From Gracilariopsis chorda (Eukaryota > Rhodophyta > Florideophyceae > Gracilariales > Gracilariaceae): a DNA stretch of 64,000 nucleotides. Below, piece by piece: positions 30,673-63,886 of the stretch. The notes beneath the pieces were generated by a model. The model saw only the letters and a list, made by a program, of their open reading frames with translations. It searched no databases and was not told where the DNA came from. The DNA lies in assembly GCA_003194525.1 (NCBI GenBank), contig NBIV01000014.1:124001-188000 (forward strand), in the 5' to 3' direction. The translations under genes were made by a program, and so were the position numbers. The stretch's first letter is position 1, and every line of letters begins with the position of its first letter.

Positions 30673-30689
30673 CCTCGCTCTCTTGTGAG

Positions 30690-33646: not shown

Positions 33647-33723
33647 GCTCCCATGGTTACCTGACAGACTATGACGGCTTCGAACGAATCCCACGGGTGG
33701 CCATCACGGTCGATTCGATCATT

Positions 33724-35459
33724 ATGGCTCTAGTAACTAGCAGTGCTTATGCTCATCCCGAGGAAAAATATGACCACACCTTGCGTCGTAATCCGATGGC
33801 CGAGAGAAGTACCCATCTTCCCAGCTCGGTCGCCGATTTTATGCGATACGCTGACCAATAATTGGACTCCTGTCGGTTCGCTGCCATCCCAAACTATGCT
33901 CGCAAGAAGAAGAATTCCCAAGAGCACTCCTGGTACAACCACTGTCTCCATCTTCCCGCCGATGCCCGTTTGGTCGCGGGATGCCGCACTCTGGTCCCCC
34001 CGACATGCCGTTTCTCCACTGTGGCGAGGAGTTCGATTACCAATGGAGAGTAAAAAAGCTCCTAAAGGATATATAATGGATGCATGGCGATCCTAAGGCC
34101 CTCTTCCCTCCTTCTGGTCATAACCTCCTCGGGCTGGTCTGCTTCAAGCACCCATATGACTGCTTGTACTGGTTATACAACTGGACCTACTGGAATGAGA
34201 TGATCCAACCGGATGGCCGCATCCGTAATACCTTGAAGTACTTCTTTTGTTGGCATCAGGTGGCGTTTCACGATATGCCTCCTTCCTGCAGGTCTTCCTT
34301 ATACCCTCCCTTTCCTCCGCTTCGCGCCGGCCTACAGGCCGCTATTTGGCACGTTTTGAATCTTTTTATGGTCTTCACTCCACCCATTCTGGCTTATCAC
34401 ATCCACCAGCTGCAGAAATACCTCACAAAGCGTCTCGCGCGGTTGACTTGGCAGGTGCTCTTTGCCGAAAGGGCCGTTTTCTGTCTCGTGGCCTTTCTGG
34501 ATAATGCCCGCTATGGGTCCAGGCTAACGTCCAGGAGGCCGACTACTCCATCTGGAATGAGCAGGGGCTCCTCATTCCCAACAGCCGACTCGTGCCCCTG
34601 CCGCGGCCCTTAGTCCTGCTCTCTCGTGCGTTGGGGGTGCAGAACATCGTCCAAGATACGGATTATGGAGTGGAAGAGGCCGAGGCCTTATTGGATTATG
34701 TCCTTCAGGTCGACTGCATGCAGAACCCCGGTTTTCTTTGGTACGATTACGACACTGGCACCTTCTCTCCGATTCTGCGACACCTTCTCGGCCATAACGA
34801 TGGAAATGTATACCAGGCCAAACCATTGTTGTCTGTCCCCGGGAACGAACTGCGCCAGTCGGTACCAGATTACTACCCCGAGGCGGCCATCGGATTTGAC
34901 GCGGATTGTGTTCGTCCTCCTCTGCAGGAGCAGGTAGGAGTTCCGGTACCAGCCCCGTCGGTTGCGCTGTCACTCGTGCTGGCGTGCAACCACGACGCGA
35001 TAGAGCCCCCAGAGGTATCCACTGGTCCACCGTTTCCGCAACCCTCCGTGTCCTTGACGGTGTCTGCTCCCTTGGTCCCTCCTGTTCCTCCTGGGTCGGT
35101 TAAACCTTAAGCCATTACTATGGCCTTTGAAGACTTGAAAGGTCTGCGCGTCCGTTGGTGTTCTTGAACCCACTGGCATTGTTGAGGCTCTCTGTGCCGC
35201 CCAATAAAGTCCTGGACAAGCCTCGCGGTACCACTTCTTGGTGCAACGTAACAAAGAGGTTAAAGAAGCCTTGGCAACCATCCTGGAGAACAATGCGAAG
35301 GTATTGTCGGACCACGTCACAACGGACCCCGACAACTGTTTCAGCTTGAACCTTTTGGACACCGAGTCCTCTGGTCGAGAAGCGTCCGAATCAGACCAGA
35401 GTCCAGCCCGTAAGCTCGCCCGCACAGGGTCCCTTTCTCAGCCGGCTGCCACGTCCTAG
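33724..35459 (+). pseudogene. antisense protein of Gypsy element A (novel family), broken
   Basis: This lies on the strand opposite to pol, between pol and the expected 3' LTR. The ATG at 33724 opens a frame with HPEEKYDHTLRRNP, then LPSSVADFMRYADQ, a stop, then LDSCRFAAIPNYA. After frameshifts come FPPSGHNLLGLV, then CLYWLYN, RIRNTLKYFFCWHQVAFHDM and, at 34620-34790, LGVQNIV, EEAEALLDYVLQVD and GFLWYDYDTGTF. A Pro/Val-rich linker follows to TAA 35108, and a last helical part RNKEVKEALATILENNAKVL ends near 35457. The same ordered blocks recur in elements B and D and, faintly, in C. I know no named family with these blocks. Confidence 0.7.
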
Positions 35460-35858
35460 TGGTCTCCCTTACAGATAATAATCTCTTGGTAAACACTATG
35501 GTTCACTTTTGGTGCCTCTGGCGTCTGCTTGTGCCTCATGTCCGCCGCTGTCTATGGGTCTTCGCCTCGTAACTCGATACCTGTAGGTCAGTTTCAGAAT
35601 AAGTCCCTGGGGTTTCGATGCATCTTTACCATAGGGTAGCTGCGCGTTCTTCTCCCGGGTTTCAGCCTCATTGGTCTAGGGACTTCAGAGTTATGTGAAC
35701 TACTATTCGGTCATCATTGCGGCGAACCTTGGGAGGCACCAGCGAGCGGGGCTTAGGCGGGAAGGGGATCCTTAAGCGCTGTGCCAAGCGGCGGGCTGCT
35801 GGAGGCGTTTCCATGAGCGCCGTAGCCAGTGGCTGGGTTCTGATTGGACGGAGTCTGG

Positions 35859-38800
35859 TTAGGCACGTGATGGCAAACATTTGTGGCCAGAAAAACCCCC
35901 CTCCTTGAGGTCACGTTCCGTGTGGCCTGTGTTCGACCAGTAGCGGGCCACAAAACTATCCGGTATATCTGACCTTAGAAGCCAAGTATCGTCTTTGGGT
36001 TCATAGTCATACCAGCGGACTTTGTAGCGCACTTAGCAATCATTGGTCAGCCCAGCGGAGACGATGTGGTCAATTACATACTCCTGTCTGTCGCGCCAAT
36101 CTGTAACCTCTGGCAACTCCATTTGGTCTAGGGGACCATATTCGTGAGTGTCTGAAAGAACAGCGTCGTGAGCGTGTGCTGCGACGTCCATCGGGTTGGT
36201 TACTTTGTCAGGAAATATCATTTCGTCCAGGGGGCCGTAGCCATTTGAAGAAGGGCTTCGTGGATCGGCGGAGACCTGTGGTTTTGTAGAACCTGTAGAG
36301 ATATCAACCAGTGATTCTGTAGGACTGGAGGGTGGGGGTTGGGACAAATGTCGAGCGTGCAAGTCCCATGGATCACTGGAGGGAGGGCGTGGCGCCAAAG
36401 AGACACGGTCAATTGTGGCTGTGTCCTGAAGGCCATCTCGGTCGATAGAAACAGTGTGCCCAAGGCACTTGAGTAACTTGAAGGGCCCAGTGGACTCAGT
36501 CTTTTGTGATGTCCTCAGCCTCGTGCTTTTCTTGAGGTATTCTGTCCAAAGGGACGTAATCTCCCACGGCCACTTGTGGTGTACACCAAACGGACCGATC
36601 AAAATCGGCCTTGCAGCGCGCCTGCACTTTGTCCAACGTGGTCTGCGCGGCCTTCAGAATAGAATCACTTCTTTTCTGCGAACACCGTTTGGCCTGGGCG
36701 GGAGTCATTTCCCGTGTTGTGTACTGACGCGCTCTTAAGTCCTGTAGATCAACAATGTACGGCGCAGGTGCACGTACGAGGGTGAGGTCAAAAAGAGTTG
36801 TACCGGGAGACTTATGCACTTGATTTAAATGCATAGACCAGCGGTTCGACGTAGTCATCCCAGTCCAATTGGTGCTCGGAAACGTAGTGAATCAACCTTT
36901 TGTACAGGGTTCTTTTGAATCTTTCGGCTTTTCCGTTGGTGTGAGGGTGGTACGCAGTAGTGAGGATATGTTTTACACCCAATGCAGAGCACAAATGCTC
37001 AAAGCATTTGAAGATAATCTGAGAGCCCTTGTCCGTGAGGAGATAGAGCGGTAATCCATAGGGATAAATCCAATGGACTATGAAAGCCTTGGCTACGGCT
37101 GTAGTGGTCGTTAGTTTAAGCGGATTTGCTAGGGTCAACCTAGTGAACCGATCAGTAACCACCAATATAAATCGCTTACCATGGGGCGAATTTGGAAATG
37201 GACCTAGGATATCCAAAGCGATGAACTCCCACGGCCCGGATGCTGGGAATAACTTCAGTTTCCCGTAGTGTAACGCTCTTTTCCCTTGGATTTTCGCGCA
37301 TGCTGCACAATTCCTTGCGGTTTTCATTACGTCATTGGCCTTCAGAGGCCAGTAAAGTATCGTTTCAGGGTCTGATACATCTCAGTCCTTACAGGATGGC
37401 CAGCCAACCTCGGATGGTGAGCGAGATAAATAAGGCGTGCGCGTAAGGACTGAACAACCACCCGCTGTATCGCCCCGTCCACCGGTGACATGTGACATAA
37501 TATGCCCCGGCGTTCATAATCGAGCAGCGACCCAGAATTCCCTACTTTTTCTCGTACCGGGACGCAATATTCGTCCTTTTTCTGGGCCTGAAAAAATTCC
37601 TCGAGGGGTATTGGTGTAAGATCTGCGCTTTCCGACTGGGCCATATGGACATCCAGCGGTGGACCTTCCCAACCTTTGGTGCATAAGATTGCTTTGCCGT
37701 GTCCGTCCGTCCCTTCGGCCATTCTCACCTCATCCATCCGCGGTTCCCCTTCTTTCTCGTCAGTGTCCGGTGGCCGATCCCAGATGGTGGGAATCTCAGC
37801 GTCCCGTGGAGTTTGGTCTGTACCATTGGTCAGAATGCGTGACAGGGCATCCGTGACCTGATGTTTCAGCACTGGCCTATAGGTTACTTCATATTCGAAT
37901 TCTGGCAGGCGAAATCACCATCAGGTCAGACGGGAGGATGCGTCCGTCATGTTTAATAACCACCGGAGAAAATTTTGATCTGTCCTAGTGGTAAAGCAAG
38001 TTCCTTCCAGATAAGGCCTAAGATGGAGCTCGCGGATGCATTCGTATCCAATATATACGGCTTATTGGTCCTGGGTAGCCCCAGGATCTGCGGATTAACC
38101 ATATAGTCTCTGAAGTTCTGATACACCTCATATTGCTGGTCCGTGAGGTGGTCAAATTGCGAAGGGGTCTCTTTCTTCAGCATTTCATTGAGAGTTGCTG
38201 CGATTTTCGTGAACCCTGGGACAAACCTATGGTACAAATTGCATAGGTCAAAGAATTAACGCAGTTCTGTATGGTTCCTAGGGTGTTGTGCTTCCTGTAT
38301 GGCCTTAGTTGTAGCTTTGGCTACTTGTAGTTTTCCAGGAGAAAACACATGGGCAAGGTAATCCACCGAGGGCAGAAAGAAGAAACACTTGTTCAGCCTC
38401 AATGTTACGCCCGCCTGTTGGAATAACCTTAGGACTGCCTTCACATGTGTGAAATGTTCCCTAATGGACCTGGAGACGATGATCACATCATCTAGGTAGA
38501 CCAAGGCAAACTTCCATTTGACCTTGGACAGAATGATGTCCATGGCACGCTGGAAAGTGGCTGGCGCATTCATGAGACCAAAGAGCATCCGGGTAAATCG
38601 GAATAATCCCAAGTGGGTCATGAATGTAATTAGCGACTTCGCCTTGTCGTTCATGGGTACTTGCCAATAAACACAATTGGCATTTAGCGTGGTGAAGATT
38701 TGCGCGTCCCCAAGGGAATCTAGACAGTAGTCCATTTGGGGGATAGAATAAGTATCCCTCTTGGCCACCGAATTTAGTTTGTGGTAATCAATACAAAAAC

Positions 38801-39494
38801 GTACGGTCCCGTCTTCTTGGCCACCAAGACAAAAGGGCTAGCCCATTCGGCCTCCGAAGGTGGTGCATGATCAATAACCCCTGCAAATTCATCTTCTCAG
38901 TCTCCTTGGCCACCACGTCCCATCCTTTCAGGTCATCAGGTCAGTTCGATATGGGTGTTGATATTAGGGCGTGGCCCCATCCTTAAGGTCAATTCGATGA
39001 TTTGTGGTTTCGATTGCGCCCAGCTTATCACTCCACATGCTAGCAAAGCCCTTGAGGAGATCACTGAATTTTTCCCTATATGGTTCAAAGTCCTTGCCCA
39101 TGTTGACGTCGTTTCTCCAATTGGCCGGGGGATCACCATCTGGAAGCAACTCCTCCGCGTCAATCTCCATAATGGCCACGGGAGCAGGCATAGATATCCC
39201 CACCACTGCATCCTTATGCAACCTCGTAGGCTTGTCACGGAAGTTGCTCGTGGTAACCACAAAAAGCCTGTAGGGTACCACAGTCATTACTCCATTGTCC
39301 ATGAGGTTTAGGTGTCTCAATACCCGCTTGGCATGGTTTTGCAACAAAACTTGACCTGAGGACTCGCATACCCCTGCAGCAGCCACCTGAGTCATAGGCA
39401 GTATGGCTATCGATCTGTTAGGAACAGAGGTGCAGTGGTTGATTTGGTTGGAAGTCGATGGTGATGATCCGAGTGACAAGTTCGGAACATCCAT
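35859..39494 (-). pseudogene. pol remnant of Gypsy element A (RT, integrase, chromodomain)
   Basis: Reading 39494 to 35859 on the minus strand: linker; reverse transcriptase with FGLMNAPATFQRAMD and LVYLDD (about 38510-38580); the start of the RT-RNase H connection to about 37953. Most of RNase H is absent: the frame jumps to KHQVTDALSRI near 37870. Then come the integrase zinc-binding region (LAHHPRLAGHP), the core with IALDILGPFPNS, LLTDKGSQ and GKAERFKRTL (36830-37220), and a chromodomain at about 36060-35920 (EYVIDHIVSAG, stop, YKVRWYDYEPKDDTW). Numerous stops and frameshifts make it dead. Confidence 0.75.
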
Positions 39495-41689
39495 CGGGGT
39501 TTATATAGAGTTTCTATTCTAGTTCTATCAGTGCCACTAGTCGATGAGAATTCGTCCGAGTTAAACGGTATGATGCTTGGTGTTCGTGCTTGCCTCCGTA
39601 CGCGACTGGTTTACCGGTTTCAGTGCCAGATCTAGTCATTTGATGACTTCGGCAAATTTCATCAATGCTGATGACTTGTCATCAGACGAGGTCTTGATGA
39701 TCTGGCATGAACTCAGGGTGCCAGTGATGACTTCGCACGACTCCCTCGGGAATGTTCCATGACCGTTCGATCCCTGCTGTACCGTGTGAAGTGTCTGTCA
39801 ACGTTGTGCGTAGTAGGCAACGTGTACTTTAAAGCCAATATGTCCACGTGGTCAACCAAGACTTCTTTGACATGAATATGTTGTCATAGCATATTGACAA
39901 TGTTTCACGAAAATGTCAACTCCGCTTTGAGGAAAGTTTGGTATGGCAAATGGGGAACCGATTTCTTCAGCAGATCGAGTAGAACAAAACTAGCTGTTTT
40001 GTGCACGTTAGAACTGATGCTAGAGCCAACTATACTCAAAGAAAGGTAAATAATAACTAATTCTAACACGCCCTTGCCAATCTGACCTTGTTGGAAACAG
40101 TCTTCGTGTGAAACATGACTTAGCTGGGGTAGGCTATGGTCCCAGGCGCGAGTCAACGATCGGCAATGGTCGAACTCGATGGAAAGCAACCCTCGTTTGG
40201 CCAGGACAGTTTGCTTAGCAGGTTCAGTCATTTTGGCCCCAGCATTTCCATTTGTTCGTGCTTTCTGCTTATCGTTTTCATTTTTACCGTGCTTTCAGCT
40301 ACGAGGAGACCCTTTCCAGCGTACCTTAGTGTTACGTTTGTCCTCACCCGCGTCACCGTTTTGTGATTTTCAAACATTGCTGTACAGTAACCACAGAACT
40401 GATACATAAGCCGTCGAGCAACGAGCTGCAAGAAAAATGAGGAGGTAGTGTCTTCACTCACAAATCATGGACCCTACGCTGGCGTAGAAGAACCCAAACC
40501 AACCCCGCTCAGAACTTCAAACATACTAAGAGTCAACCACAGCCAGTGCACACAACGGCGCCCCACCCAACTCGCCTCGCTCGCCGCCTTGGTGGGGAGC
40601 TACGACAACACCTCTACATCAAAGAATTATGCTAAAACGCCATCCTGAACCACAGAGACAACCACGAACCCCAAGATACAACACAAGCTACCGTCATAGC
40701 CACAGGCTCACACTGGTCCAGCCCAACTACACACACCCACCAACCAAACTCCACCCACCCCATCAAGGACACGACAAATTTCTCAAACTGTAGTGCAGCC
40801 AGGGGTGAGCACAACGTCCGTAAAATAGGACTATTAGATTCAGCCTAACAAATGGGTTCCAATAGGTGGCGTTCTCCCTAATATAGAAGTGGCAATTGCG
40901 GGAACCCTGAAAGGAGATCTGCAAGCACCAAGCAAAGAGCGGGTTCACTAGGGGTACGATAATCCTACAGGCGCTGCTACGGGACGCACTGGGTATTGAT
41001 GGCTTAGAAACAACACCTAGAGGGTGTCGTAATAATCTAACTGAAGGTGAGTATCACGAGTTTGAACCAGAATAACTAGAACAAGCCTCATTGGTGCTTG
41101 CTATACTTCCCTGGAGGTGAAGCTTCCAGCGGTGCACTATATACAGTGCCACAAGCTGACCTTGACGGAAACTATCTACCGTATCCTATAAATATCTCAG
41201 TTAGGTTATTCTATCTAATTGAATTACAGTCAAATGGAACAATTTCTCTGGATTAATGTACCACGTGGAACCCGCTAGAAAGTACGAGTAATCCACTAGG
41301 AATATTCCGTAACAACCCATCCTTAGAAGCATGCACAGTACGCACTGTACTACATACCCCTTTTCTTGGAATGCATAATGTCCTCGAGGTTCATCACGCA
41401 TAAGTGCTCGTCTCCCTCGGTTATTTGAAGGGTCCACTCAGGGCGCGCCGGGCAGAGGTGAGCCTTACCTCCATCACAGATGCTGTCCGCGCATACAAGG
41501 TTTTTCCCTGCAGCGTCCGTTTGGAACCTCCATGGCGAAAACATTGCCCATATCTCATGAGTATCCACCCACGTCTGCTCATACCTCAGTTGTAACTCCA
41601 TCTGGTGGTTGGGTGCATATCAGCCCCATTTCTCTACCTCCTCGTGCGGACGACTTTCATAACCTGGAGGAACGCCTGAAAGCGGGTCT
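39495..41689. other. spacer between elements A and B, no gene recognised
   Basis: This is gene-free. It includes a patch of GATGACTT/TCATCA repeats (39638-39742) with the palindrome TGATGACTTGTCATCA (39669-39684). A C/A-rich block at 40450-40800 resembles the composition of the copia element but gave no domain. The 3' LTR of element B is expected toward the right end, undefined. Confidence 0.45.
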
Positions 41690-41896
41690 GTGAATCAGTT
41701 CCGCATTATGAAGCGGTCTATGTCTCCTGCATATTCCGAGGGGTCATCCGCCCGAATTCCTCGACGGCATTTCCATAGTCCTGCGATTCCTGAGAGACAT
41801 AGAAGCTGCGGCACTCCTCTGCAGGTATGGACTTCCTTTCTTAGTGTCAACACACAACCTTTTCCTGCTCTTTCTTCTTTTTTCTTCTCCTTTGTA

Positions 41897-43648
41897 ATGT
41901 CCCAAGCTTATAACGATCAATCTTCGACTCCCGTGGATCCTCAGGTGTATCACACCTCTACTGGTGCGTCAATCCAGCCTAAGGAGCATATCGATCATTG
42001 CGCCATACGTGTGGTCGTGCCGTTCCACGATCGGCATGTCAGACTACGGTGCTTCGTCGGTGAGTACATCCATCATTTCGGGCGATACCTTCAGTTGGTG
42101 TATTCTCGCGGTTCCCGAGACTCCCTGAAGTGAGGGCAAACGTAACCGTGAAGATTCGTATCGCAGTCATTGGCTACACGTTCCGGTGCTTTGCGATAAA
42201 GCTCCAAACACGGTAGGGTACTGCGATCGTCCCTACCCTAAGTGTATCAAGGAACGCAAAATGCAGTCGCGTCTGCAACTGCTCTTTCAAAAGAAATCCA
42301 TTCACCATGCGGAGCGTCGTCCTGGCGGCATCTCGGATGCCCGCTTTGTTCTGGTCTTGCTTACTTATGACCCTCCCTATGAGGGCCTGTATTGGTTAGA
42401 GCGCAGTAGTTCGGGTACCAACTCCGCGGTCGAAATCCGTATCATAACAACCTTTGGATTCTTCTTCGGAGGGCAGAACACGGTATTCCATGATATGCCT
42501 TCAGGTCATCGTTCTATATACTACGTCCCCATCGTCAGCTCTTGGAGGGACCACTGGGTGTCGCCTCACCTGAGTTTGGAGACGCCGCTCTTCTTTGTAT
42601 ATTGCACCTCCGAGGTACTTGATACCCACGGCTTCCTGAAAGGTTTCGTTATGCTGATTGCCTCTACGAAGTTCGCTGTAGGGGCCCTTATGGCGTACAT
42701 TCAGGCGGCAGATGAGAATGTCCTCTCCTATACGCGGAGCGGCGATGGTCTTCTCGATTGGTACTCGTCATACCAGCCTACACCGGGTTGTTTACTTCCT
42801 CTTTTGGTAGCCATGATCCAGTATATCCATTCTTTGGGTTTCCAAAACCTTTTCAGGGGCACCATGTGGAGTGCCGACGAGGCGAAGGCTCTTCTGGATT
42901 ACAACCTTCAGTTTGACTGCTCTGAAACCCCTGGTTTCCAGTGGTATGACTATGGGGGAGACAACTTCTACCCGATCAGGCGAAGCCCGAACGATGACGA
43001 TCACGGGCGCGCATATGCTGCTTTTCCGCGCCATATTGAAGAGAGAACGCCTAAGGTGCCATGATTTCAGGTCTCTGATTATGATACGAAGGTTGGGAGT
43101 CTGTCGATCTGCACGTTAGTTCCTCTGCCCCTTGGAGGATTACCTGTAGCTCCTGCAGTTAGTGGTTATACTTCTCCTAATCCTGCGGTGGCTGCTGCAG
43201 CCCCCGTCAGTGCCACTCCGGCGTCAGTGCCCGCGGCCCCTGTGGTGGGGATGGATGTTCCGCGCATGAAGAAGAAGGCGATCCCTCCTGCCCCAGTGGG
43301 TCCAACTCCTTCGTTTTTTTTCGGCTCCTGCAGTGCAGCCCGTATTGAATAGTGTGCCACCTCAGGATATTTCCTCACCTCCAGTGTCAGTTCCTGCAGT
43401 TGTTTCTCCGGCTTTTCCGTTGCCATCGCCTTCAGTGGCTGGACCTGCTTCCCCTATCCAGGCTATTGCCTCTGCCCCAATGGTGTTACCCGCAGCTCCT
43501 TCGGTGGTTGCTACCGAAGTCGAGTCAGCAGAAGATGCGATGGCAGTCGCCTTTCCGGAGATGGTGCATGGTTGTTGCCATCAGTGTGCCTGCTTCTCCA
43601 GTTGAGGCTATGCGCGAAGCTCGCGGCTGGATGCTAGAGCACCGTTAG
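41897..43648 (+). pseudogene. antisense protein of Gypsy element B (novel family), broken
   Basis: The likely start is the ATG at 41897 after a pyrimidine-rich leader. Block 1: KEHIDHCAIRVVVPFHDRH then FVGEYIHHFGRYL (to 42133). After a frameshift, 42186-43064 is a long frame containing ARFVLVLLTYDPPYEGLYWL, IRIITTFGFFFGGQNTVFHDM and RSIYYVP, then IHSLGFQNLF, DEAKALLDYNLQFD and PGFQWYDYGGDNFYPI. A Pro/Val/Ala-rich linker (43090-43600) and a short helical end (EAMREARGWMLEHR) follow. Order and spacing match the antisense frames of A and D. Function unknown. Confidence 0.7.
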
Positions 43649-44007
43649 GCACGTACTGGTAGCAAATCCCTCGGGGGGAGGCATGACAGCCTTAAGGAGT
43701 TTATCGATAACCAGGCCACTGTGGCGAAGGCGCGCTTGCGTGCGGAGTATGCGGTGCACTATTGCGGGAACCTCCGGGCAGTTTACATAGCCTGTACGAT
43801 CCAGTTAGTAAATTCAATAAAATTATTCCCTAGGTGGTACAGCAGCTCCATCTAAGGTTAGTGTTAAATTGGGTTCATTAGTCCCCTTAAGTGCAAAAGA
43901 GAACGACAAGAAACCTATAGGGTGGTGGGAGGATGTTTGTCTCCTGTAGGAGAGGGAAGCGGAGATAGACCATTGTTGGTGCCCCCCCCTTTCTGAAAAG
44001 AAAACGC

Positions 44008-46814: not shown

Positions 46815-47629
46815 TGCAACCCCCTCAGGGAAGAATTCTTGGTACTAGAATGCTTTCCCGAAATTATCGTTTGTGTAGTGTGTATATGAACTACGCCCCA
46901 CAATGGTGGATATGGACACGTGAGACACGGTTTTGGGTCAATGGGCGGTTGGCCACAGTAGTAGATGTTGCCACGAAATGTGGAGTATTTTAGTTGATTT
47001 TATTTATTACTTTCACACTCATTTCTGGGAAGCTAATACTTAGTGCGACGGCGCACTGCCGTTGCACCAGTAAACCTTCCCCAATAAGGGAACCCAAGCT
47101 GGGGAATTGGCTCTAGTTGTTACCGCTTGCGCGCGTGCTCTACTCCTCCTTGGAGGGAAACGCCGCGAACCACGGGACATCTAACCCCCTTGCACATCTA
47201 AAGGGACCCATCACTGGGAGTCATATTATTCCAATCGCATTGGTGTTTCGTCCTGTATAGGGATATTGTTACCGGCATCGCCGTTCGCCCCCGTCGCTCT
47301 CGCGACTCATTTCGTCCTTCCTTCCTCCTCTTCGCCCTTCTTTTTTCCTCTTTTTAGGGTAGCACCTCCCGCTATTCGCGGCTCTCGTGTGCGCATCCGC
47401 TCACACACCCCCACTTACGTGGAAACCTACCTCTGGCGAGGACGCATTCCCGCTCTCGCGGATACCGATTCTTGTCCTAAACCCTCTTGCGCTAGTCGCG
47501 AGGGGTTGGCTCGGTCTTACAAACCGGCTCCGCCGTGCCACCCCTAGAGGGGCTCTACCCAGCTGGGGTCACCTCCACGGAGGAAAGATCCCGAACGTCT
47601 TTCGGTGTTTCTCCCCTTGGAGCGTTGCA
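46815..47629 (+). repeat. 5' LTR of element C
   Basis: Aligns along its length with 57676-58489. Starts TGCAAC and ends GTTGCA. It includes a TTTTATTTATTAC stretch near 47000, a pyrimidine tract ending in TTTTTAGGG near 47340-47360, and five compact inverted repeats in its last 90 bp (47541-47622). No canonical TGG-initiated primer-binding site follows the end immediately. Confidence 0.92.
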
Positions 47630-47739
47630 ACACAATGTGTTCTCCCGACCTAGAATGGTTTTTTGTTTTCCCTTTTACGAGGTTTGTTTTCATTCACCAG
47701 AAGTTCCGTGATCGTTTCCCGTCGTAACGGTATTTTCTC

Positions 47740-49853: not shown

Positions 49854-49874
49854 AGCCCCCTGTCAACGGAATGA

Positions 49875-52800: not shown

Positions 52801-55584
52801 CATTCCCTGCAGTCGCGGGTGTTACATCTATCACACTACGCCCCCATTGGATGTCACCCAGGTGGGAGGAAACTGTACCTAACCCTGCGAAGGGATTTCT
52901 ATTGGCGCGCTATGGCAGTGGATTGCTACGCAACCGTGCGGTTTTGTAGCGAATGCGCGAAGAATCGCGTGAAACTCCGCAAAAATGCGAAGAACATGAA
53001 ACTATTCCCCGCAAGGGCGCCGCTCGAGTTTATCGCGATCGATATTCTCGGACCACTACTCACCACGAAACGTGGAAACAAGTTTCTACTTGTCATTACC
53101 GACCGCTTTTCTAAGCTGGTACGGACTATCCATCTTCGGAGTATAACCGCTCTAACGGTGGCCCAGGCTCTGGTGACGCACTGGATTTTCGTCTACGGTC
53201 CCCCTGTGGAAGTGCTTTCTGATAACGGGAAACAACTCGCGAGCAAGTTCTTCCCGGATGTTCGTCGCATCCTGGATGTCAAGAACTTGTTCACGACTAC
53301 CTACCACCCCCAGTGTAACGGGCAAGTTGAACGGTTTAACCGGACGTTACTCGCGGCGCTACGTTCCTACGTCGCCGACCACCCAAAGAACTGGGACATG
53401 TACGCTGATGCGTTAGCCTACGCGTACTACACGCAGGTACACCGGCCTAGCGGAGTTTCGCCATTCGAGTTGGTTCAATCTAGAACACCCCCGCCTGTGG
53501 CGCTGGAACCCAAAGCTACCTTGGACAATTTCCCATCAGTGGGTATCTACCGGCAGCAATGGAAGCAATGGCTTTCCAAGCTGGTCCCCGCTGCGCGGAA
53601 GTCTATGGCACGGGCCCAAGCCGCTTACAAGCGGGATTTTGATGCTCGCTTGCGAGGGAAACCGTCCCCGACTCGGGCAAATAACTACGTCTTCATCAGG
53701 AAGGAGTACTACAACCCGGAAAGGGAGAAGCGCCATAAACTCTCGCCTGTGGCGGATGGACCATTCAAGGTCATCTCTATGAACACCGACACTGTCGTGG
53801 TAGAGATGGGCGATACGCACGAACGGATTTCCCGTGACCGTGTTGGCCTTGCCCCTCCTCCCTCGTCAGAGGTTGTCCTGGATCCAGGCAACCCCGATTC
53901 TACGCACTCTGGAACACCGGAATCATCCGGGAGTACTAGGCCTACGGTACTACCACACCCCAGCCGGGGACTCTCAGACCTACCCACCCTGTCGGACTCA
54001 CCGGCTCAGCCGGGTATTTCGGGCCTCTCAGCGCCCGCCCCTACCACGCCCGACCCCTTGGCGCGAATTTATACCATCCAGGCAGGGAATGTTATCCCTT
54101 ATCCCGCCGCTCCGTCTAAGGAGGGGGAGGAGAACACTCTTTTTCGAGGAACGATATCGCCGTCGCAAGGGAAAACACGGAACATACGGAACACTGACCG
54201 TGGAGCACGGAGTATGTCACACGACACTAATCCCCCGTTCTCGGACAGTGCTGCGCAACAAAAACCAGACGCGCAGGCCCCGCAAAAGCGGCAATTATAC
54301 CGTCCGTCACGGGAAAACAAGAAGCTCCCCCCCAAAACCGCAGCAGCGGAAATGCAATCGCCCGATCCATCCCCGGAGGCATCGCCACAAACGCGGGAAA
54401 TATACCGTACTACACGGGAGGTTGAAGCGCAACTACCGCACACCCCTGTCAAGGAAGGATCCCCGATACGGGAGTATGGTGAAGATCGCCCCCAATCCCC
54501 TGAGCAGAGTGATGCATCGAAGCGGCCATTGGCAGAAGCCCCCGCAAAAGCGGTCCAATTAGGTCCAGCAGACCCGCCTCAAGCGGAGAAGAGGCGCCCA
54601 GATACGCCAGCGCCACTGGGAAATAACCACACCCTTCTTGGGGAAAAATGCGGCCAAGCCGCAGTCGAAGCTTCAGGCCCTGGCGCGCAAGCACCGGAAA
54701 CGCCTCCTGTCATCGACGTAATCGAAGCCCCCGCTCCGGGGAATAAGTTGCACCAACTTCCGCAACGCTGCGGCGAAGAACCGAGGAACTCGGGAAAAAC
54801 GCGCGCCATGGCACGCTTGAAACCGGTCGTACCGGACGCTGCCCCTCCTCATGGAGACGGTGCACTGCGCTTAGCGGCAAGGCCCCTGAAAAGGGTTTCA
54901 TCGGTAACTGCCTGGCCCCCCCCAAAGGAGAATTTTAACCACAATGCCGGTGTACCAGAGTTAGCCTTAGCCAACTCCCCAGTAGCCGGGGACACCACGG
55001 CACAGCCGGAACGTATGGCAGAGAACACTCGTGATCCCCCAGGGGAGGCGGAACGCTTACCAATCACCGTGTCGCACGGGACCCCGCAGGGGATGTCGCA
55101 AACGCCGTTCCCGCATACGCCGCAAAGACCCCGCAAGCTCGCGGTTCGCAGAGAACACCGCACTCGTGGAGTTCAAGTCCCCCACCGACTGGCGGTTTGC
55201 CCGGCCTGCCATGATGACGGGAACAACGACGCCGCTCTGGGGAATAACTTGGCGGTGAAAACCATGACGCCAGACACCCTCTTGAGGGATATCCTCCCGC
55301 ACGAGCAGCGGCCGCTACCACAGCGCACGGCAACGCCAGATTTATCGCCGAACACCCTGCTAAGAGACATTACACCGCACCGCGGGCAACCCTCACAAGG
55401 GAATACAACCACCACCCGGCACGGCGTGCAGGTCTACGAACGAGAGTGCGTAGTAGACCGACTTGTCGGACACACATGGGACCAGGATGGTATTCTACAA
55501 TACCGGGTCTGCTGGTACGGGTATGAACCCAGTGGGGATACGTGGGAGCCAATTGAACACCGCCCACGATCGCAGGTCGTGTGA
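49875..55584 (+). pseudogene. protease-RT-RNase H-integrase-chromodomain polyprotein of element C
   Basis: Protease: FLTVLDTGAGPNFV (near 50200). TAA at 50625 and TAA at 51219 interrupt the same frame. RT: DKMLRAGVIEPAQSPWASPV, PFGLTNAPATFQ, then a 2-base loss near 51608, then LVYLDDIIIFS (YLDD 51654-51665). RNase H: YSVDTDSSDYQVGCALFQ, VSEKECLAVVWA, DHSSLRWL. Integrase: zinc region HYAPIGCHPG..CSECAKNR and core DILGP..SDNGKQ..QVERFNRTL with Asp at 53041, Asp at 53221 and Glu at 53329, a D,D-35-E spacing. A GPF-like module (about 53740-53860) is followed by about 515 residues of Pro-rich sequence, then a chromodomain (55432-55570, YRVCWYGYEPSGDTWEPIEH). From 51610 to 55584 the frame is intact. 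Confidence 0.88.
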
Positions 55585-55831: not shown

Positions 55832-56128
55832 TCACTCACCCCCATCGTCCGGGGCGTAAAAACCAGCGAAGCGGTAGGCCAACGCGTCCGCCATGGTAGT
55901 GACATCCCCCGATACCTCGGCAGCGCTCAGACCGGCACCCCGGAGAAAACGTGCGATGATCTCGTTTTCATTCGCCGTCACCCCGCTGGGGATAGAAGGT
56001 CCGGCACTTGCCGCAGAAGGGTCAGCAGCCGGCTCGGCCGGAGATACCCCCTCTGGGAAAGCTTCCGCGCTAGCGCCGGTTTCCTCTACGTCCATCTCCC
56101 CGGGTTCTTCCGGTTCGTTATCGACCAT
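55832..56128 (-). CDS. small acidic antisense frame of element C (possible second antisense product)
   Basis: 98 codons from an ATG complementary to 56126-56128. Acidic N-terminus (DNEPEEPGEMDVEETGASAE), Pro/Ala-rich middle, then NEIIARFLRGAGLSAAEVSG and TTMADALAYRFAGFYAPDDG. It starts after a stop that ends the main antisense frame, and ends 248 bp from the pol stop. In element D a second antisense frame also follows a stop at the equivalent place. No recognised domain. Confidence 0.4.
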   Translation of the reverse strand: MVDNEPEEPGEMDVEETGASAEAFPEGVSPAEPAADPSAASAGPSIPSGVTANENEIIARFLRGAGLSAAEVSGDVTTMADALAYRFAGFYAPDDGGE

Positions 56129-56143
56129 TGGGTCATCTCCGCC

Positions 56144-57615
56144 TTATGCGCGGTAGTACTCGTCAGAATCGACGTAACCCACCGGGTGGTCTTCTGGCAC
56201 ATGCTGGGGGCATCGCGAAGCTCGCGCGCCTCCTCGGAGGAAATTTCCCGGGACTCCTAGGGGTCGAAGTAGATAAAATCCCCCGCAAGGGCGGTGTTTC
56301 TACCCAGTCCTGGACCACCGGTGTTACCGCTGCCGCCATCCAGACGACCGCTTTGCTCCAGCGGGACCTCACTCCAGCTAACGCTGTCGATGTACCCAAG
56401 TAATTGGAGGATCTCTTCGTTCTTGGCCTGGCCCCCAAGAGGGATGCAAAGATCCAAATTGCGGATGGCTGCCCGCACACGCGGTGGAAGGAACCGGAGA
56501 CGATACTGGTCGTACGCCTCGTTGAGGATATAAGCCGCAGTGCGGGCTGCCCACTGCGTAACCACTACGGACCACAACCCCGACCGGGGATCCTGCATGA
56601 GCAGCGAATCGAGGTACGTAAGTACCAGCGGGAGTTCTATGTAGCATCCCCGGCAGGCTTCATGGAAGCGCCACCACTCGGGGAGTGCTACATACTGACC
56701 TTGTCGGTGAGGCGGCGCAATCCGCTCTATCTCCACGTTCTGATACAGGATGAAATACCCGAATCGGGATCGTCAACGCCGCTCATAGCGGATGAAGTTC
56801 TGGAGGAAGGTTGACCAGTATTGCCGGGAAAGATAGCGGAACTCCGCCCGAATAATCGGTCGCTCCCCACAAAGGGCTTCTTGCCGCGCTGCGGGGAAAT
56901 TCCTCCAAGCGAGGGTCTCGAGGCGAAACAGGTTGTCGCCGTACCCAATCTCCCCGCGAGTGCGGAAGTGGCTAACGTCGAAGCCAAACTCCGGTGGGAC
57001 CGGTACATCGAATGGAGCCCGGCTCTGCCGTTGGTATGCCATGCGCGTCAACGTGGTCTGTGCCGCAGCGACGGTCTCGCCCGAATTCCTTCGGAGGTGG
57101 TGACGCGGAATCGCAATCCGGTGACGCCAATCCCACGATGTGGTGACTGCTCTGGGCAGATCCCCCGGAAGGGTGTCTGAGCCATCCGCATATGCGGTGA
57201 CCAATCCCTCATTGAGGACAGTGACCTGAAACCACGGGGCAAGGCACAGGTGCGACGCGTGATTCCGATTCATGGGGTTGAGCCCCACCAGGGTGTTGTA
57301 GGTTGACCAGTTGAACGCCGGAGCGGTTCCGGAGGACCCCACCGATGGTGGTAGTGCGAAGGGATGGTCGGCTGCAGCAGCCATATTCCCCGGTTGTACC
57401 AGATTTTGATCGCCCTGAGGCAGGGGAACTGACCGGAAACCGGTGGTGTATCGCCCGAGAGGCCTCGGAGGTTGGCTGTTGTTGTTGATGTTGTTGTCGT
57501 TGTTCATTTCTCCCTTTTCGAGGGTGGTTGTTGTTGTTGTTTGTGCGCTCGATGACTCTGGTGCAGAGGGATTTACCGGAGAACCGGAGACAGTGCAAAC
57601 GCTTTTATCACCCAT
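56144..57615 (-). pseudogene. antisense protein of element C (distant member of the novel family)
   Basis: The ATG complementary to 57613-57615 is 60 bp inside the 3' LTR. The frame reads 280 codons to a TGA (56773-56775), continues in the same frame to TAG 56257, and a related frame ends at TAA 56144. N-terminus: Thr/Asn-rich low complexity. Then APFDVPVPPEFGFDVSHFRT and GDNLFRLETLAWRNFPAARQ; after the TGA, LVLTYLDSLLMQDP, RLRFLPPRVRAAIRNLDLCI, NEEILQLLGYID and GDFIYFDP; and last, in another frame, PEDHPVGYVDSDEYY. The latter blocks line up in order with LFRLPCELVHFIRGLGVQNI, AEADSLLDYVVRIDW, GYLWYDYD and RHPVGRDDG of element D. Similarity is weak but collinear. Confidence 0.55.
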
Positions 57616-57658
57616 TTTAGTCTGGGAATCCTCCGCGTCCGCGGTCGTTTTCCCTTCT

Positions 57659-57675
57659 TAGGGGGGAATATGAAG
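57659..57675 (+). promoter_or_regulatory. polypurine tract of element C
   Basis: AGGGGGGAATATGAAG immediately precedes the first base of the 3' LTR (57676), the position expected for plus-strand priming. It is also just upstream, on the other strand, of the antisense gene start. Confidence 0.7.
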
Positions 57676-58489
57676 TGCAACGCCCTCAGGGAGGGATTCT
57701 TGGTACTTGAATGCTTTCCCGATATTATCGGTTGTGTAGTGTGTATTTGAGCTACGCCCCACAATAGTGGATATGGACACGTGAGACACGGTTTTGGGTC
57801 GATTGGCGGTTGGCCACAGTAGTGGTTGTTGCCACGAAATGTGGAGTACTTTAGTTGATTTTATTTATTACTTTCACACCCATTTCTGGTAAGCTAGTAC
57901 TTAGTGCGACGGCGCACTGCCGTCGCACCAGTAAAACTTCCCCAGTAAGGGAACCCAAGCTGGGGAATTGGTTCTAGTTGTTACCGCTTGCGCGCGTGCT
58001 CTACTCCTCCTTGGAGGGAAACGCCGCGAACCACGGGACATCTAACCCCCTTGCACATCTAAAGGGACCCATCACTGGGAGTCATATTATTCCAATCGCA
58101 TTGGTGTTTCGTCCTGTATAGGGATATTGTTACCGGCATTGCCGTTCGCCCCCGTCGCTCTCGGGACTCACTTCGTCCTTCCTTCCTCCTCTTCGCCCTT
58201 CCTTTTCCCCTTTTTAGGGTAGCACCTCCCGCTATTCGCGGCTCTCGTGTGCGCATCCGCTCACACACCCCCACTTACGTGGAAACCTACCTCTGGCGAG
58301 GACGCATTCCCGCTCTCGCGGATACCGATTCTTGTCCTAAACCCTCTTGCGCTAGTCGCGAAGGGTGGTCTTGGTCTTACAAACCGGCTCCGCCGTGCCA
58401 CCCCTAGAGAGGCTCTACCCAGCTGGGTTCACCACCACGGAGGAAAGATCCCGAACGTCTTTCGGTGTTTCTCCCCTTGGGGCGTTGCA
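57676..58489 (+). repeat. 3' LTR of element C
   Basis: 814 bp, TGCAAC..GTTGCA, aligned with 46815-47629 and differing by scattered substitutions, densest in the first 300 bp. Several of the compact inverted repeats seen in the 5' LTR have a mismatched arm here. Contains the palindrome CCGATATTATCGG near its start. Confidence 0.92.
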
Positions 58490-61069
58490 TCACAAAGGGG
58501 ACAGTGAAGAACCAGTCTCTATTGCCATGCCATTGTCCTGCATGGTGATTTATTCCTTTGGCAGGGTCTGAGAGAGTCCTGTAGGAGCGTGTAGAGCTAT
58601 CTCAACTACAGTGCTCTTGGGGAGCATTAAAAGAGAGTGCTTAAGGTTCGCAACGACAACCCTGAAAGGGATGGTTGGCACTATTTCCATGACACCATTC
58701 GCCATCATGGAGTGTTGTCTCGTAGTAAGTTGAGGGTTCCCTTGCAAGAAGGACAAGCCTGAGGTGGATGATTGCAGCCAAACATCCGCCTGGCTCCTCG
58801 CGGGTATCTGAACACTTTTCACCACGCGGAGTTTGTTCAACTATGTCTCCTTTGGAATTTTCCCAGTTGAAGCGCATTTGCGTCAGTTCCTGGGGATGCA
58901 GACACAATACGTACAGGAGCAGCATTATGAAATGTCACCTTCCCCAGGCGTGGGTAGATGGCACGCACATATCATTCCACAAAAGAAGTCCCCAGTATGC
59001 AGCGTGCAGCCAACTTTGTCGCCACCAGGAACCACATTCCTACCTTTAAGGATCCGACAGGGTGATGTAAAGGCAGAACCCCGAAGATGTTTGATGTTTT
59101 CCGTGAGGCATCGCGCACCATTGGTAGTTTGTCCGTCCTTAAATATTTTAGGGCCTACCTGGGGATCATGTACACAGGTACCAGGTTTGGACCGGTGCCT
59201 GTGTCCAAGATGGCACTCGCGGTGGTTGATGCGAGACAACAGCATCCTAAGAAAATAAATACTTTGTAGTTCTCGCGTTGGAGCAAATATACTGATTCCT
59301 CGAAGGTGGTGGTTGGGTCCGCTGAAAATGTGGGATCCAGTGGTTTCGTTTCATTTTGGCGTGGGGGGTCTACCAATTCCATTGCAACTTGGCACACGGG
59401 TTCCCGCCCTTTCCTAGAGACGACTTCCGTTGGTCTGGGGCCCGACGGAAGGGAGCCACGCGGGGCCTCTACGTGAGTTCTGAGGGGTTTCCTGAGTGGA
59501 GGTTGTTGGAGTTCTAATCGCTGCGTCCGGCTGTAGCGGTGCAACCGGGGCGGCAGGGTTCATTTGCGAGCTTTTGCGACCTGAAGCCGGGGCCGGCCGT
59601 CCGTGCGTAGGTGGTGCTTGGACTGGTTGAGCGGCTGTCCCCAATGGCATGCGATATCCATAACGACCTTGAGCAGAGCAGAAATCGCCAGAAGGCGTAT
59701 GATAACTATCATTCTCCGAAATATCTCCCTCCTAGAAGATGGCTACCCTCATTGCCGGGGTGAGAGTGGTGCAGTGCACCTGTTCTCGGGACAAACAAAT
59801 CCTACAAATTGGTGGGTAGCTTCGAATATTTGCGAGGCGGATGTTCCGAAAGGATACCACTGATTTGTATGCGTTGGGTGAGATCGGTGTCCGTGAACCA
59901 GACGGTGCCCCTTGAAGTGACGTAAAGCTGAGAGGAATGGCATCCTGCTTCTGTTCGAGCGTTAGGTCTTCCGCGTCTCCTGAGGTGCTGGTGTCCAACT
60001 TAAATGCCATGGCCATGTGATTTCTTGAGGCGGAAGGTTTTTCCAAAAGTAGAGCGTGGCTTCGCCGTGCAGCCCATTGGGTTTCCCCGTAGGATTCCGC
60101 GAAGCGTGAAAATTCCGTATAGGTGGTCCGCGGATGCGTGGTCAAATTATTGTGCACTCTCGCTCGTATCGAAGGGAGGAGTCCATCGACGAACAGCGAC
60201 TCTGACTCCCGTTTAGAGTATACGTTTCTGCATCTTAAGGCCTTGCTCCAGAGTCTCTGGGAAAAAACCGTTTCGGTCATTCCTGTGCTCTGGCGGTAGG
60301 AGGTGACGTCAGTGTCGCCATGTGCAATCATCCCATCTGTGGCGTACTGTTTGAGGAGGAAGTTGATCACCTCGGGGTATATCATCAGGACTTCTGTTCC
60401 AGGATTATTCGCAATGGCGCTTTCTCCTCTGAGGCGCGGTTGTGCGAGGGTGTGCGCCTGCCCAGTGAGGTAGAACTGACAGCACCACATGGCGGCACCT
60501 CCATGCACGCAGTTGGTGTTACACGCCAAACGGAAGCGTGTAAGGGAGTTCAGAACTGAGATGGGATGTTCGCCTGAAAAGGTGTATTTCTTCATTTGAA
60601 TATCCATTCCGCTCTGAATTTTCATAATTTATTTAGCCACCGACGTGTCGTAAACAGTGGAGCGATCATTCAACCTATAGATTTCGTAATCCACCACCAT
60701 GGCAAATAGATCATTTAACCGGACAATCTTCCTGACCCTTGGTCGTTTCTCCGTCAGAGACGCGTCGTCCTCTGAGTTGGAGCTGTTCTCGGAATCGGAG
60801 CCTGTACTACTCTCCGAGTCGGGGTTTCTTCTGTTTCTTCTTCTTTCCCGCCCTTTCTGGCTTTTCCTGAGTGGTGTCTGGGCGTCTGACTTGGTCCATG
60901 TTATCGCAATTACCCAGCAGAATATTCTTTCCTCCTCTCCGGAGGTGAATTTTGTCGCGACCGATATCCTTTTCGTACTCTGTTGTGTGTCAGATCCAAA
61001 CAATTCATAGCGATGTTCATAGGCCTTGCCTGTTTCCTTGCAGTGATATCCTGTCTTTCTCCGGCCCAA
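58490..61069 (-). pseudogene. gag-protease half of Gypsy element B
   Basis: Minus strand, right to left. The gag start is a truncated basic/Ser region (RERRRNRRNPDSESSTGSDS), then KIVRLNDLFAMVVDYEIYRL, an in-frame TAA (near 60629), then the capsid-like part (VINFLLKQYATDG, VFSQRLWSKALRCRNV, SLFVDGLLPSIRA) to 59732 with a decayed zinc knuckle (CRICLSREQVHC). A protease remnant has ILDTGTGPNLVP near 59180. The linker QPQ-type block (58550-58840, VPTIPFRVVVANLKHSLLML) equals the one after protease in element C. About 180 gag residues at the start and the 5' LTR are missing, apparently cut by element D. Confidence 0.75.
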
Positions 61070-62027
61070 AGAATGGCAGTATCCTGTGCTCGTCTGCCCT
61101 GCGTTACCTTAGTTATAGATAGAGGGAACCTGTCCTTTACGTAAGATGCACTTTGGAACGCAGCTAAAGGTTCTAGGTGCGTGGTTTGGGAGCAAACCTC
61201 CGCTGTATATAACCAGAAACCACCTCTAGGAAAGCATCCGATTCTAAGAGGGCGTCTGCCGCACGGTGTGCAATTTCAATGGCAATCTCCTCCACTAGGG
61301 CGTGGTGGCTGGATCGAAGTTGCGCCTCGACACCTATGTGACATAGTGCGCGCGAGCGCCCTACTCAGGTGAAATGTCCGGGAACGGTGACGGTGCGCAT
61401 CGCGCAACGGGGTGTAAGGCCGTGCAGCTACCGAGTCGGAAAAGGCGGAACGGTGAAGGTTCGGAGTACCGCAGGACCCTCTGCTGTGAGGCCGAGTACG
61501 GAGACACCCGTAGCCAAAACAGGTACCACGCCCCTAAACAGAGAGCGGATGTAACGGTAGATATCCGATACGGCGCAGCCTGTACAGGACTTTGACGAGC
61601 TGCGTCTCCTACTACGACTTAGGATCCGTGCCAAGGAACTAAGACGAAGAAACTAGTAGGAAGCTCCTTGAATTTACTTGGTGAGGGCGTCGGCCGCGCT
61701 GGCGGAGAATAAATATCCAGCTGGGCCGCGCCAAACGTGTATGGCTTACCGCTCGCGGGGCACTAGCTGCCACCGGCACACACGTGTGCTACTACAAATA
61801 CTACACTAGCCGAATAGCGGAAGGGCTCTTACAGCCAGAATCCCACTCCAAATAACGGTTTTCACTTCCTTACAGACCCCCCTTCTCACACTGTTGTCCA
61901 TCCCCGGACAGCCATCTTCGATTTCCGTGTATGGCCTCTTTCAACCGTTCTGCTCGACCCGTCCTCATAAGAGTCCGCTTCACTTTCACTTTATCGCTTC
62001 GTCCCGCACCCCGGTTCACACTGCATC
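61070..62027. other. probable 3' LTR region of element D
   Basis: The gag of element B stops abruptly near 61070, and the antisense gene of element D starts at 62028. By analogy with A-C the interval should contain the 3' LTR of D. It has no coding frame, a TATAT(A)ACC near 61206, and a pyrimidine-rich last 150 bp. The matching second LTR would lie outside the window, so this cannot be proved. Confidence 0.4.
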
Positions 62028-63886
62028 ATGCCGCAGGTCGGCGAGAATTGGGTCAGCCCTGACACAGAGTTCGACCATCGCCGCCTTCCGGGACGCACAC
62101 CAATTTCCCGTCGTCGGATTGTTCTTCCCTCTCCTGTCGATGAGTACATTGCTGCCGCCGCTGAGTGGTTCGATGCTTCTCGCTTCTCCGCCATCCGGGT
62201 TCGTCCGAGCATTGGTTATAGGGCTGGGAATAAACGCCTTCGCGGTGGTGCGTGGGAAGCCGGATGGGGGCACATGCGAATCCGAGTCAATGACGGACCC
62301 CACCTTAATGCCGTACGAACGGAACTCGCTGTATCCTTTGATATGCCGTGGGTTCGGTGCGCACAGGAACGAGATTATCAACACAGACTTTCCGTAAATC
62401 CCTTCGGGATCAATATGATTCAAACACCGACACGGAACCCTTCCCACCACCAGGCCACAATCTCCTTGCTCTAGTCGCGTGGCGGGCGCCGTTAGACGTA
62501 TTCTACCTCACCTGCGAGCGTGAGCGCGGGGGTGATGACATCAGCGACGAAGCACGCATCCGGAGCTGTCACGCGATGTTCTTTGGATGGCACAACCAGG
62601 AGTTCCAAGATCTTCTTCGTCCGAAGCGGCAGGGCTTATATCTTCTTGTTCCACAGGAAGAGCGGATGTTCGACGTATAGAGGTATCTCTGTATGCCGAC
62701 TCCCCCGATTGCGGCATACTATTCGGGCGTGATGCTCGCCGAAGGGCAGCTGCCATCCATCGCCCGCACTGTTCTCCAGACGGAATGGTCAGTGCTGGCA
62801 TTCTTTGCGTTCCTTTACGCAGCCCATGACGGACTACCAATGCAGTTGAAGTTCTCCGACTTGCGCCTTAGACAAGATCCTGACATGGACGCTCCGGTTG
62901 GACGGCTGTTCAGGCTCCCATGTGAGCTGGTTCACTTCATCCGGGGGCTCGGGGTCCAAAACATAGTCCGCGGAACCGCATTCGGCGCAGCAGAAGCCGA
63001 CTCTCTCCTGGATTACGTCGTCAGGATCGACTGGGAAAGGACACCGAGCCCCGGATACTTGTGGTACGACTACGACGAAGACCGTTTCACGGATATCCCA
63101 AGGCATCCTGTAGGGCGTGATGATGGCAAGTAGTACAGAAACAACCCTCCTTATCTGCCGGAGTCGCAGTGGATGGCGGCGCCTCGCGACTACGCTCCAA
63201 ACTATTTTCCACAAGCAGCGGGGTTCGTTCGGGAATGCCTCGCTGGTATGCAATTATTCAATACCGTCAGCGGAGATGACGATGACGAAGGCGCATTGGC
63301 CGACCAGTCTGAAGCGACACAATATCCGACTCGGATGCGCCCAGGCGTTCGCTACATGCACCAGCGCCGGGTTTGTTCGGTCAATATCGAACCAGATTCG
63401 GTGACTGCTCTGCATCATGTCCATCGGAATTCCGTCGTGACTGAGGAGCTTGACTTGTCCACCGATAGAACAAATCTTTCAGCAGCACTGTACCAAGCCT
63501 ATCGCAAGTTGAACGACCGGTGTGCAGAGCTGGAAGTGCCGGTATCGGATAGCATTACGCAAGCACTGGACGGCGCGATGGAATGGGTGGTGGAAGCGAA
63601 ACGCCATGCGAGCTTGCGAATTGCTGCGTCCTATCAGTTAAACGAGATAGTCAATCAGGTGAGGCGCAGTGCTGAAACCGTGCTCGGGAATGCAGGTAGT
63701 GTGTTCGCCTGCGAGGACGCAACCAATGTTATAACGGGAGTGGCGGCGGGTTTGGCGGTCGAAGCGTCCGGTGCAAAAGTGGTGTTGGGCGAGGACCATG
63801 TAACTCTCACTGAGAGCGAAACAGATAGGACAGGTATGCCAACGTCGGATGGGGCGCATGGCGATTATCAGAGGCAAGGCGCGTGA
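62028..63886 (+). pseudogene. antisense protein of Gypsy element D (novel family), nearly complete
   Basis: The ATG at 62028 opens MPQVGENWVSPDTEFDHRRL, then VLPSPVDEYIAAAAEWFDAS and RFSAIRVRP. A frameshift near 62420 moves to one frame that stays open to TGA 63884 except for TAG at 62678 and TAG at 63131. It encodes FPPPGHNLLALVAWRAPLDV, RIRSCHAMFFGWHNQEFQDL, LVPQEERM, RLFRLPCELVHFIRGLGVQN, AEADSLLDYVVRIDW, GYLWYDYDEDRFTDIPRHPV. After the second TAG comes a 237-residue helical part (NDRCAELEVPVSDSITQALD; SYQLNEIVNQVRRSAETVLG). All blocks recur in A and B in the same order. It is the best-preserved copy in the window. The associated pol should lie beyond the right edge, on the minus strand. 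Confidence 0.7.

Follow-up and report, generated by a model that had tools for sequence, protein, structure and literature searches.

Evidence that Ty3/Gypsy elements of the red alga Gracilariopsis chorda carry a selected antisense gene encoding a protein family with no recognised domain

We analysed a stretch of 64,000 nucleotides of the red alga Gracilariopsis chorda (contig NBIV01000014.1, positions 124,001 to 188,000; hereafter the window). An initial annotation of the window had proposed that its four Gypsy long terminal repeat (LTR) elements, here A to D, each carry a gene antisense to pol, and that the product is selected and founds a new protein family. Our results support this reading. 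The antisense gene almost certainly encodes a protein and is under selection: many further copies exist in the genome, the frame evolves as a coding sequence in diverged pairs of copies, and no known domain scored over cut-off in profile searches.

The window copies were located by tblastn with 11 long relatives as queries (nine frames from this genome and two database proteins). All four elements carry a relative of the antisense protein, with best E values of 0.0 for A, C and D and 3e-126 for B, and the window pieces also match one another in blastp (A/D, 52%, E 3e-17; A/B, 47%, E 8e-15; B/D, 33%, E 5e-18). Their positions are listed below, where L and P numbers denote genome loci and database relatives.

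33238..34966, plus strand: antisense gene of element A, decayed, in several frames (tblastn with L019, L062, P0001 and others)
33424-33858, 34077-34610 and 34505-35107, plus strand: antisense pieces of element A (frame listing)
35208-35456, plus strand: possible antisense tail piece of element A (by eye)
41687..43774, plus strand: antisense gene of element B, decayed; longest open piece 42129-43061 (tblastn)
55835..57657, minus strand: antisense gene of element C, frames broken; first in-frame ATG at 57615 (tblastn)
61992..63883, plus strand: antisense gene of element D, decayed (tblastn for 61992-63508, and frame pieces)
61971-62471, 62342-62677, 62681-63130 and 63134-63883, plus strand: antisense pieces of element D (frame listing)

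All four copies are decayed, with no open gene among them. The protein described earlier in A, B and D is thus present as relatives detectable by tblastn and blastp, but direct translation of the ranges first given for it yields many stops, with the conserved blocks spread over several frames. The element B copy is 57% identical to locus L043 over 42108-43130 (tblastn). The element D copy is 92-93% identical to L003 up to 63508 (tblastn); set beside L003 by eye, it changes frame around 62.4 kb and is interrupted in frame by stops at 62678-62680 and at 63131-63133. The collinear match in element C, previously thought weak and ending at 56144, is present but strong (90.5-91.2% identical to the open 609-amino-acid frame of L069; tblastn), and the copy reaches 55835, broken between frames.

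Searches of the 91.3-Mb assembly (1081 contigs) revealed further copies carrying the frame, the absence of which would have refuted the initial annotation; all copy numbers are lower bounds. The D piece found at least 150 scored places and the B piece at least 129 rows, and the two lists merge to at least 182 distinct places of the A/B/D types. The C piece found at least 133 places, being the scored ones among 1425 first-look candidates. Many of these relatives, which number in the hundreds, retain long open frames. Measured stop to stop, the frames examined span 774, 738, 847, 708 and 516 amino acids in L061, L062, L063, L043 and L003 (A/B/D types), and 609, 609, 561 and 436 in L069, L070, L080 and L078 (C type). 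The matched stretch is free of stops in 109 of the 133 scored C-type places, as counted by eye.

Selection was assessed from the proportions of nonsynonymous (pN) and synonymous (pS) differences between copies. Of the 17 D-like loci (L001-L017), 12 were compared over 150 ungapped codons of the D-type core; L011 and L014-L017, whose matches are shorter, were left aside. Against the older loci L012 and L013, pS was 0.71-0.77 and pN 0.19-0.23; the window copy D and L012, for example, gave pS 0.735 and pN 0.227. Between L012 and L013 the ratio of nonsynonymous to synonymous substitution rates (dN/dS) was 0.21 in the core, and pN/pS was 0.40 over a longer stretch. A longer comparison of 20 chosen pairs from 23 loci gave pN/pS of 0.32-0.90, with diverged pairs at 0.32-0.69 and the conserved core lower; L043 and L042 differ with pS 0.26 and pN 0.08 over 717 codons. 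For the 609-amino-acid family, six of the ten C-type loci were used (L069, L070 and L073-L076); set aside were the window copy, L068, and three loci with shorter or broken frames, L071, L072 and L077. All 15 pairs gave pN/pS of 0.24-0.63. Thirteen pairs across C-type subfamilies fell at 0.56-0.63 with pS saturated, and such values for distant subfamilies are rough because of saturated synonymous sites and protein-guided alignments; the ungapped D core and the L043/L042 pair depend less on saturation and alignment. Integrases from the same kinds of element gave pN/pS of 0.26-0.38 (seven pairs, pS saturated), so the antisense protein is selected, but less tightly than integrase.

The other reading frames behave differently. 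In the diverged pairs four of them show pN/pS of about 0.85-1.7 and at least nine stops each; the mirror frame, whose third positions mirror those of the antisense frame, is also low but contains 20-70 stops. In a few recent pairs (L019/L022, L019/L024 and L022/L028) the ratio of one other frame is no higher than that of the antisense frame. It is extremely improbable that the region acts as an antisense non-coding RNA or merely shadows a sense feature. Passages of PMC7264820 state that LTR elements can have antisense transcripts that function as RNA, but the codon-position pattern, the low pN/pS in an open frame, the stops in each of the other five frames of diverged pairs, and the absence of overlap with pol in element C and in L080 all argue against it. 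On the pN/pS values and the stops in other frames, a chance frame, a shadow of sense coding and a function in RNA only were rejected.

In the A/B/D types the position of the gene relative to integrase is uniform where both can be paired. Twenty-eight of the A/B/D-type places lie less than 8 kb from an integrase (150 scored integrase rows; the 28 places pair with 27 integrases). Every one of them lies downstream of it on the opposite strand, at a distance of 2.5-5.7 kb; for the remaining 154 no integrase is nearby among the matches listed. Two of the 133 C-type places are near an integrase among the matches listed, at 7.9 kb and on the opposite strand but upstream; these most likely represent neighbouring elements. 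The antisense geometry of the C type is drawn from element C, L078 and L080.

In element C the LTRs and pol could be placed directly, and pieces of A and B were recognised by comparison with it.

46810..47635, plus strand: 5' LTR of element C, starting TGAA and ending CACA by eye (blastn self-comparison)
47740..49850, plus strand: gag-like frames of element C (open frames)
51583..55581, plus strand: pol frame of element C, comprising the end of reverse transcriptase (RT), RNase H, integrase and a C-terminal chromodomain (Pfam)
57671..58495, plus strand: 3' LTR of element C (blastn self-comparison)
36033..39500, minus strand: protease, RT, RNase H and integrase pieces of element A (blastp against element C frames)
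36033-36653, minus strand: chromodomain-like start of element A (by eye only)
44273..46844, minus strand: pol pieces of element B, left of the inserted element C (blastp against C and A frames)
58553..60628, minus strand: pieces resembling protease and gag on the right of element C, whose position and strand assign them to element B (blastp)

The element C pol scores over the Pfam cut-offs for PF17917, PF17919, PF00078, PF17921, PF00665 and PF00385, the last being the chromodomain at its end (E 8.5e-7). By this domain order, element C conforms to a chromovirus-type Ty3/Gypsy element; the order RT, RNase H, integrase and C-terminal chromodomain was established by Pfam for element C only and read by eye in A, B, L019 and L080. 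The pieces at 58553..60628 match element C frames 50628-51218, 49875-50624 and 48705-49850 (blastp), the last of these frames resembling the gag-like piece of B. The two LTRs of element C are 95.5% identical (blastn of 29-64 kb against itself). Its antisense ATG sits 55 bases from the 3' LTR, and the antisense and pol stops lie 247 bases apart, tail to tail and without overlap; the antisense frame of L080 is likewise clear of pol.

Two other genome copies, on contigs C69 and C555, lie within LTR pairs found by comparing two end stretches per copy. The C69 pair is 478 bases long and 99.79% identical, with ATCCC on both sides; the C555 pair is 608 bases long and 97.5% identical, with AGCAG on both sides (repeats by eye). 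All of these LTRs begin with TG and end with CA, by eye. In C69 the antisense frame begins about 0.3 kb inward of one LTR, and in C555 about 0.7 kb. Integrase strand identifies this LTR as the 3' one in C555; in C69 a primer-site-like stretch beside the opposite LTR (by eye) does so. The antisense gene therefore lies between pol and the 3' LTR in element C and in the C69 and C555 copies. The same position had been described for A and B, where no LTR pair was found in the self-comparison of 29-64 kb, the sole pair being that of element C. For element D, the nearest scored integrase among those listed lies beyond the window, at C14:189409 on the minus strand.

Element C (46810-58495) sits within element B in the opposite orientation, with the pol of B to its left and the protease-like and gag-like pieces to its right. 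Its flanks read AAGGC and AAGGG (by eye), which suggests a 5-base target duplication with one change. A primer-site-like stretch, TCTCCCGACCTAGAA, occurs just past the 5' LTR in both element C (after 47635) and L064 (C555), by eye, as is expected of related elements. Elsewhere in the window, remnants resembling Copia-type integrase and RT were seen by eye at 28629-32482 on the plus strand, and an inverted repeat occupies 16135-16292 (72-base arms, 78% complementary, 14 bases between them).

The gene is not carried by every element of the genome. The region downstream of the integrase of L079 (G000:C53:253100-258000) gave no match to the antisense family in tblastn. The suggestion that every Gypsy element carries the gene thus holds for the four in the window but not genome-wide, and because L079 lacks a match the antisense gene is a trait of a lineage. 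By eye, L079 is a different type of element, with a chromodomain-like integrase end and a gag-like frame downstream on the opposite strand.

Profile comparison shows the C type to be distantly homologous to the A/B/D types. A profile of nine A/B/D-type cores (A4) aligned with one of four C-type proteins (A6) in hhalign with probability 97.4 and score 93 over 175 columns; the score did not exceed 21.7 in 20 column shuffles and was 16.9 with the profile reversed. L061 also matches element C directly (tblastn, E 1e-8). The integrases fall into two groups: those of C, L084 and L085 are 60-71% identical, those of L081, L082 and L083 65-69%, and identity between the groups is 43-57%. The element A integrase is 55-58% identical to L081-L083, and the integrase fragment of element B shares 44-45% with L082 and L083 but 38-40% with the C group; with A it shares 35% over 60 residues. 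Since the antisense types divide broadly as the integrase groups do, the gene most simply derives from a common ancestor and would have been inherited together with pol since before the two groups split.

The protein is about 600-850 amino acids long; a conserved domain of about 300 amino acids occupies its centre, and both the start and the tail vary. Alignments of the central domain show the motifs WHN.EFHD, VPTP..AYH, PLP..L...R.LG.QN and DW..TPGF.WYDY. Searches of about 5.8 billion proteins returned six relatives (P0001-P0006), of which one is named: P0003, an unnamed product from Agarophyton chilense. P0005 is 97% identical to L061, and the two are perhaps from the same species; P0006 is 88% identical to part of P0001. 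P0004 joins a DnaA start (Pfam) to a second half 99% identical to that of P0001 and is probably an assembly or sample chimera. Both P0004 and P0006 were left out of the alignments.

Could the gene be a passenger, taken up from the host? LTR elements are known to capture genes in this way (passages of PMC7264820), but this gene occurs in two integrase groups and has been selected across saturated synonymous divergence, and none of the six database relatives, judged by the proteins themselves, is recognisable as a cellular gene. We consider capture very unlikely.

The absence of a named domain, remarked on at the outset, was borne out: Pfam, NCBIfam and the PDB (searched by sequence) gave no match over cut-off for the antisense protein. 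In PHROGs the sole match, to a glycosyltransferase family, was weak (E 0.027). Sub-cut-off Pfam matches (E up to 10), each in one or two members, were taken as chance: PF04954 (0.24), PF19728 (0.098), PF02591 (0.17), PF12189 (0.29) and PF11921 (1.7). Scans of viral contigs (with A1, P0002 and L061) and of prokaryotic contigs (with A3) gave pattern matches and no tblastn relative, the short patterns limiting both scans.

What might such a protein do? We propose that the antisense gene is the third gene of a chromodomain Ty3/Gypsy (chromovirus-type) lineage, lying tail to tail behind pol. It would be expressed from an antisense mRNA of its own that begins at the 3' LTR or next to it, probably within the LTR, because the antisense ATG of element C is so near it. 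The protein would enter the nucleus and, as an accessory factor, regulate how its own element is expressed, integrated or silenced, in the manner put forward for the antisense proteins of Grande and Retand and like HBZ in human T-cell leukaemia virus type 1 (HTLV-1). C-terminal motifs hint at a nuclear role: KR.R occurs close to the C-terminus in L062, P0001 and P0002 (three of 11 proteins), and L061 and L063 terminate in RGR/RGG (by eye). We hold the proposal as a whole tentatively, as somewhat short of an even chance, and the nuclear-regulator step taken singly no more firmly. Slightly more doubtful is the further idea that a family with no members known beyond these elements and a few database relatives, dating back to the split into two groups, became an antisense-coded nuclear regulator by a route separate from those of TRP28 and HBZ.

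Several results weigh against this reading. Among the D-type cores of young copies (L001-L008), the ratio of nonsynonymous to synonymous change scatters around 1 (0.55-2.90); this burst and four of the 20 longer pairs mark the limits of the support for the initial annotation. Those four pairs, L019/L024, L019/L026, L019/L022 and L043/L044, all of recent, decayed copies, gave pN/pS of 0.72-0.90 and differ hardly or not at all from the other frames; the alignments of L019/L024 and L043/L044, like those of L043/L048 and L043/L032, run through decay, 15-40 stops interrupting the antisense frame itself. High ratios in young or recently decayed pairs are as expected of dead copies. The tail of L043 and those of the C type have no basic C-terminal motif, the tails of L069, L070 and L080 being acidic, and no nucleic-acid-binding domain scored over the Pfam cut-off in the antisense protein. 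The protein also diverges quickly: L061 and L063 share 35% of its residues and 68% of their integrases, which fits a host-interaction role as well. Finally, the customary 19-residue hydropathy mark of 1.6 is passed in three of 11 proteins (L063, 1.71; L043, 1.67; L080, 1.85), and the protein may accordingly be membrane-associated; because the other eight lie below the mark and these three only slightly above it, a soluble protein is likelier.

Those hydrophobic stretches, which are moderate, bear on the alternative that the gene encodes a second particle protein or an envelope-like protein on the other strand. The interval from pol to the 3' LTR is that of env, and 600-850 amino acids would be a suitable size. 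Envelope-like extra open reading frames (ORFs) are sense, however, whereas the gene is antisense in element C and in all integrase pairs examined; most of the proteins lack such a stretch, hhalign found no likeness between the antisense families and gag pieces from elements B and C (probability 0.8 or lower), and no PDB sequence matched. A structural role is, in our judgement, improbable. The chief rival to a regulator of the element is an anti-silencing factor, which would counter small-RNA or chromatin silencing by the host and thus act on the host, not on element transcription. Divergence faster than that of integrase, as in proteins in conflict with the host, and recent bursts with open frames would suit it; no domain or motif indicates such a function, and fast divergence is common among accessory proteins. 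We regard it as unlikely, though less so than a structural role.

Antisense extra genes are known from other LTR elements. Passages of PMC11963269 and PMC7264820 describe antisense extra ORFs (aORF-3R) between pol and the 3' LTR, in many copies, in Retand, Grande and RIRE2, report the Grande product as nuclear and propose regulation for the Grande and Retand proteins; in PMC11963269, TRP28 (PF04195) is given for 97% of Retand clusters. The gene described here resembles these in its antisense place between pol and the 3' LTR, its conserved protein and its many copies. It differs in that Retand, Grande and RIRE2 are non-chromovirus elements of flowering plants, whereas element C has a chromodomain and its host is a red alga, and in that, unlike the Retand protein, none of 15 alignment members scanned (11 and 4) matched TRP28 at E up to 10; a genome scan with PF04195 found nothing, but its controls were silent too. 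The PLP..L...R.LG stretch of the central domain may resemble the TRP28 motif, a likeness given no weight here. Because position and conservation are alike we place the gene with the antisense extra-ORF kind, while TRP28 and lineage differ. HBZ of HTLV-1 is a short basic leucine zipper (bZIP) protein whose gene overlaps other genes. Like HBZ, the present gene is antisense and would be read from the side of the 3' LTR, a comparison of working only; unlike it, its product has about 600-850 amino acids and no Pfam bZIP match, and in element C it does not overlap pol. HBZ is named in PMC11963269. Outside plants, an antisense ORF is also described for fungal Boty elements (in part of PMC7264820), likewise between pol and the 3' LTR, the likeness being one of description. 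Among open-licence PMC papers we found no earlier description in red algae, although Repbase or subscription papers may hold one; a passage of PMC6431247 concerns CACTA elements of Chondrus.

The passages of PMC11963269 and PMC7264820 place antisense extra genes of LTR elements in flowering plants, in a fungus and in certain retroviruses, and leave open what they do. The present case adds a selected, high-copy antisense gene with no recognised domain in red-algal chromodomain elements, at least one copy of which is very young (LTR pair 99.8% identical). It bears on annotation, the sole named relative being listed merely as an unnamed protein product, and it offers a new protein family with many natural variants for asking what antisense genes are for in LTR elements. 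If the further idea of an evolution independent of TRP28 and HBZ is true, a backwards third gene beside the 3' LTR would be a recurrent solution of LTR elements, not an oddity of plants and HTLV.

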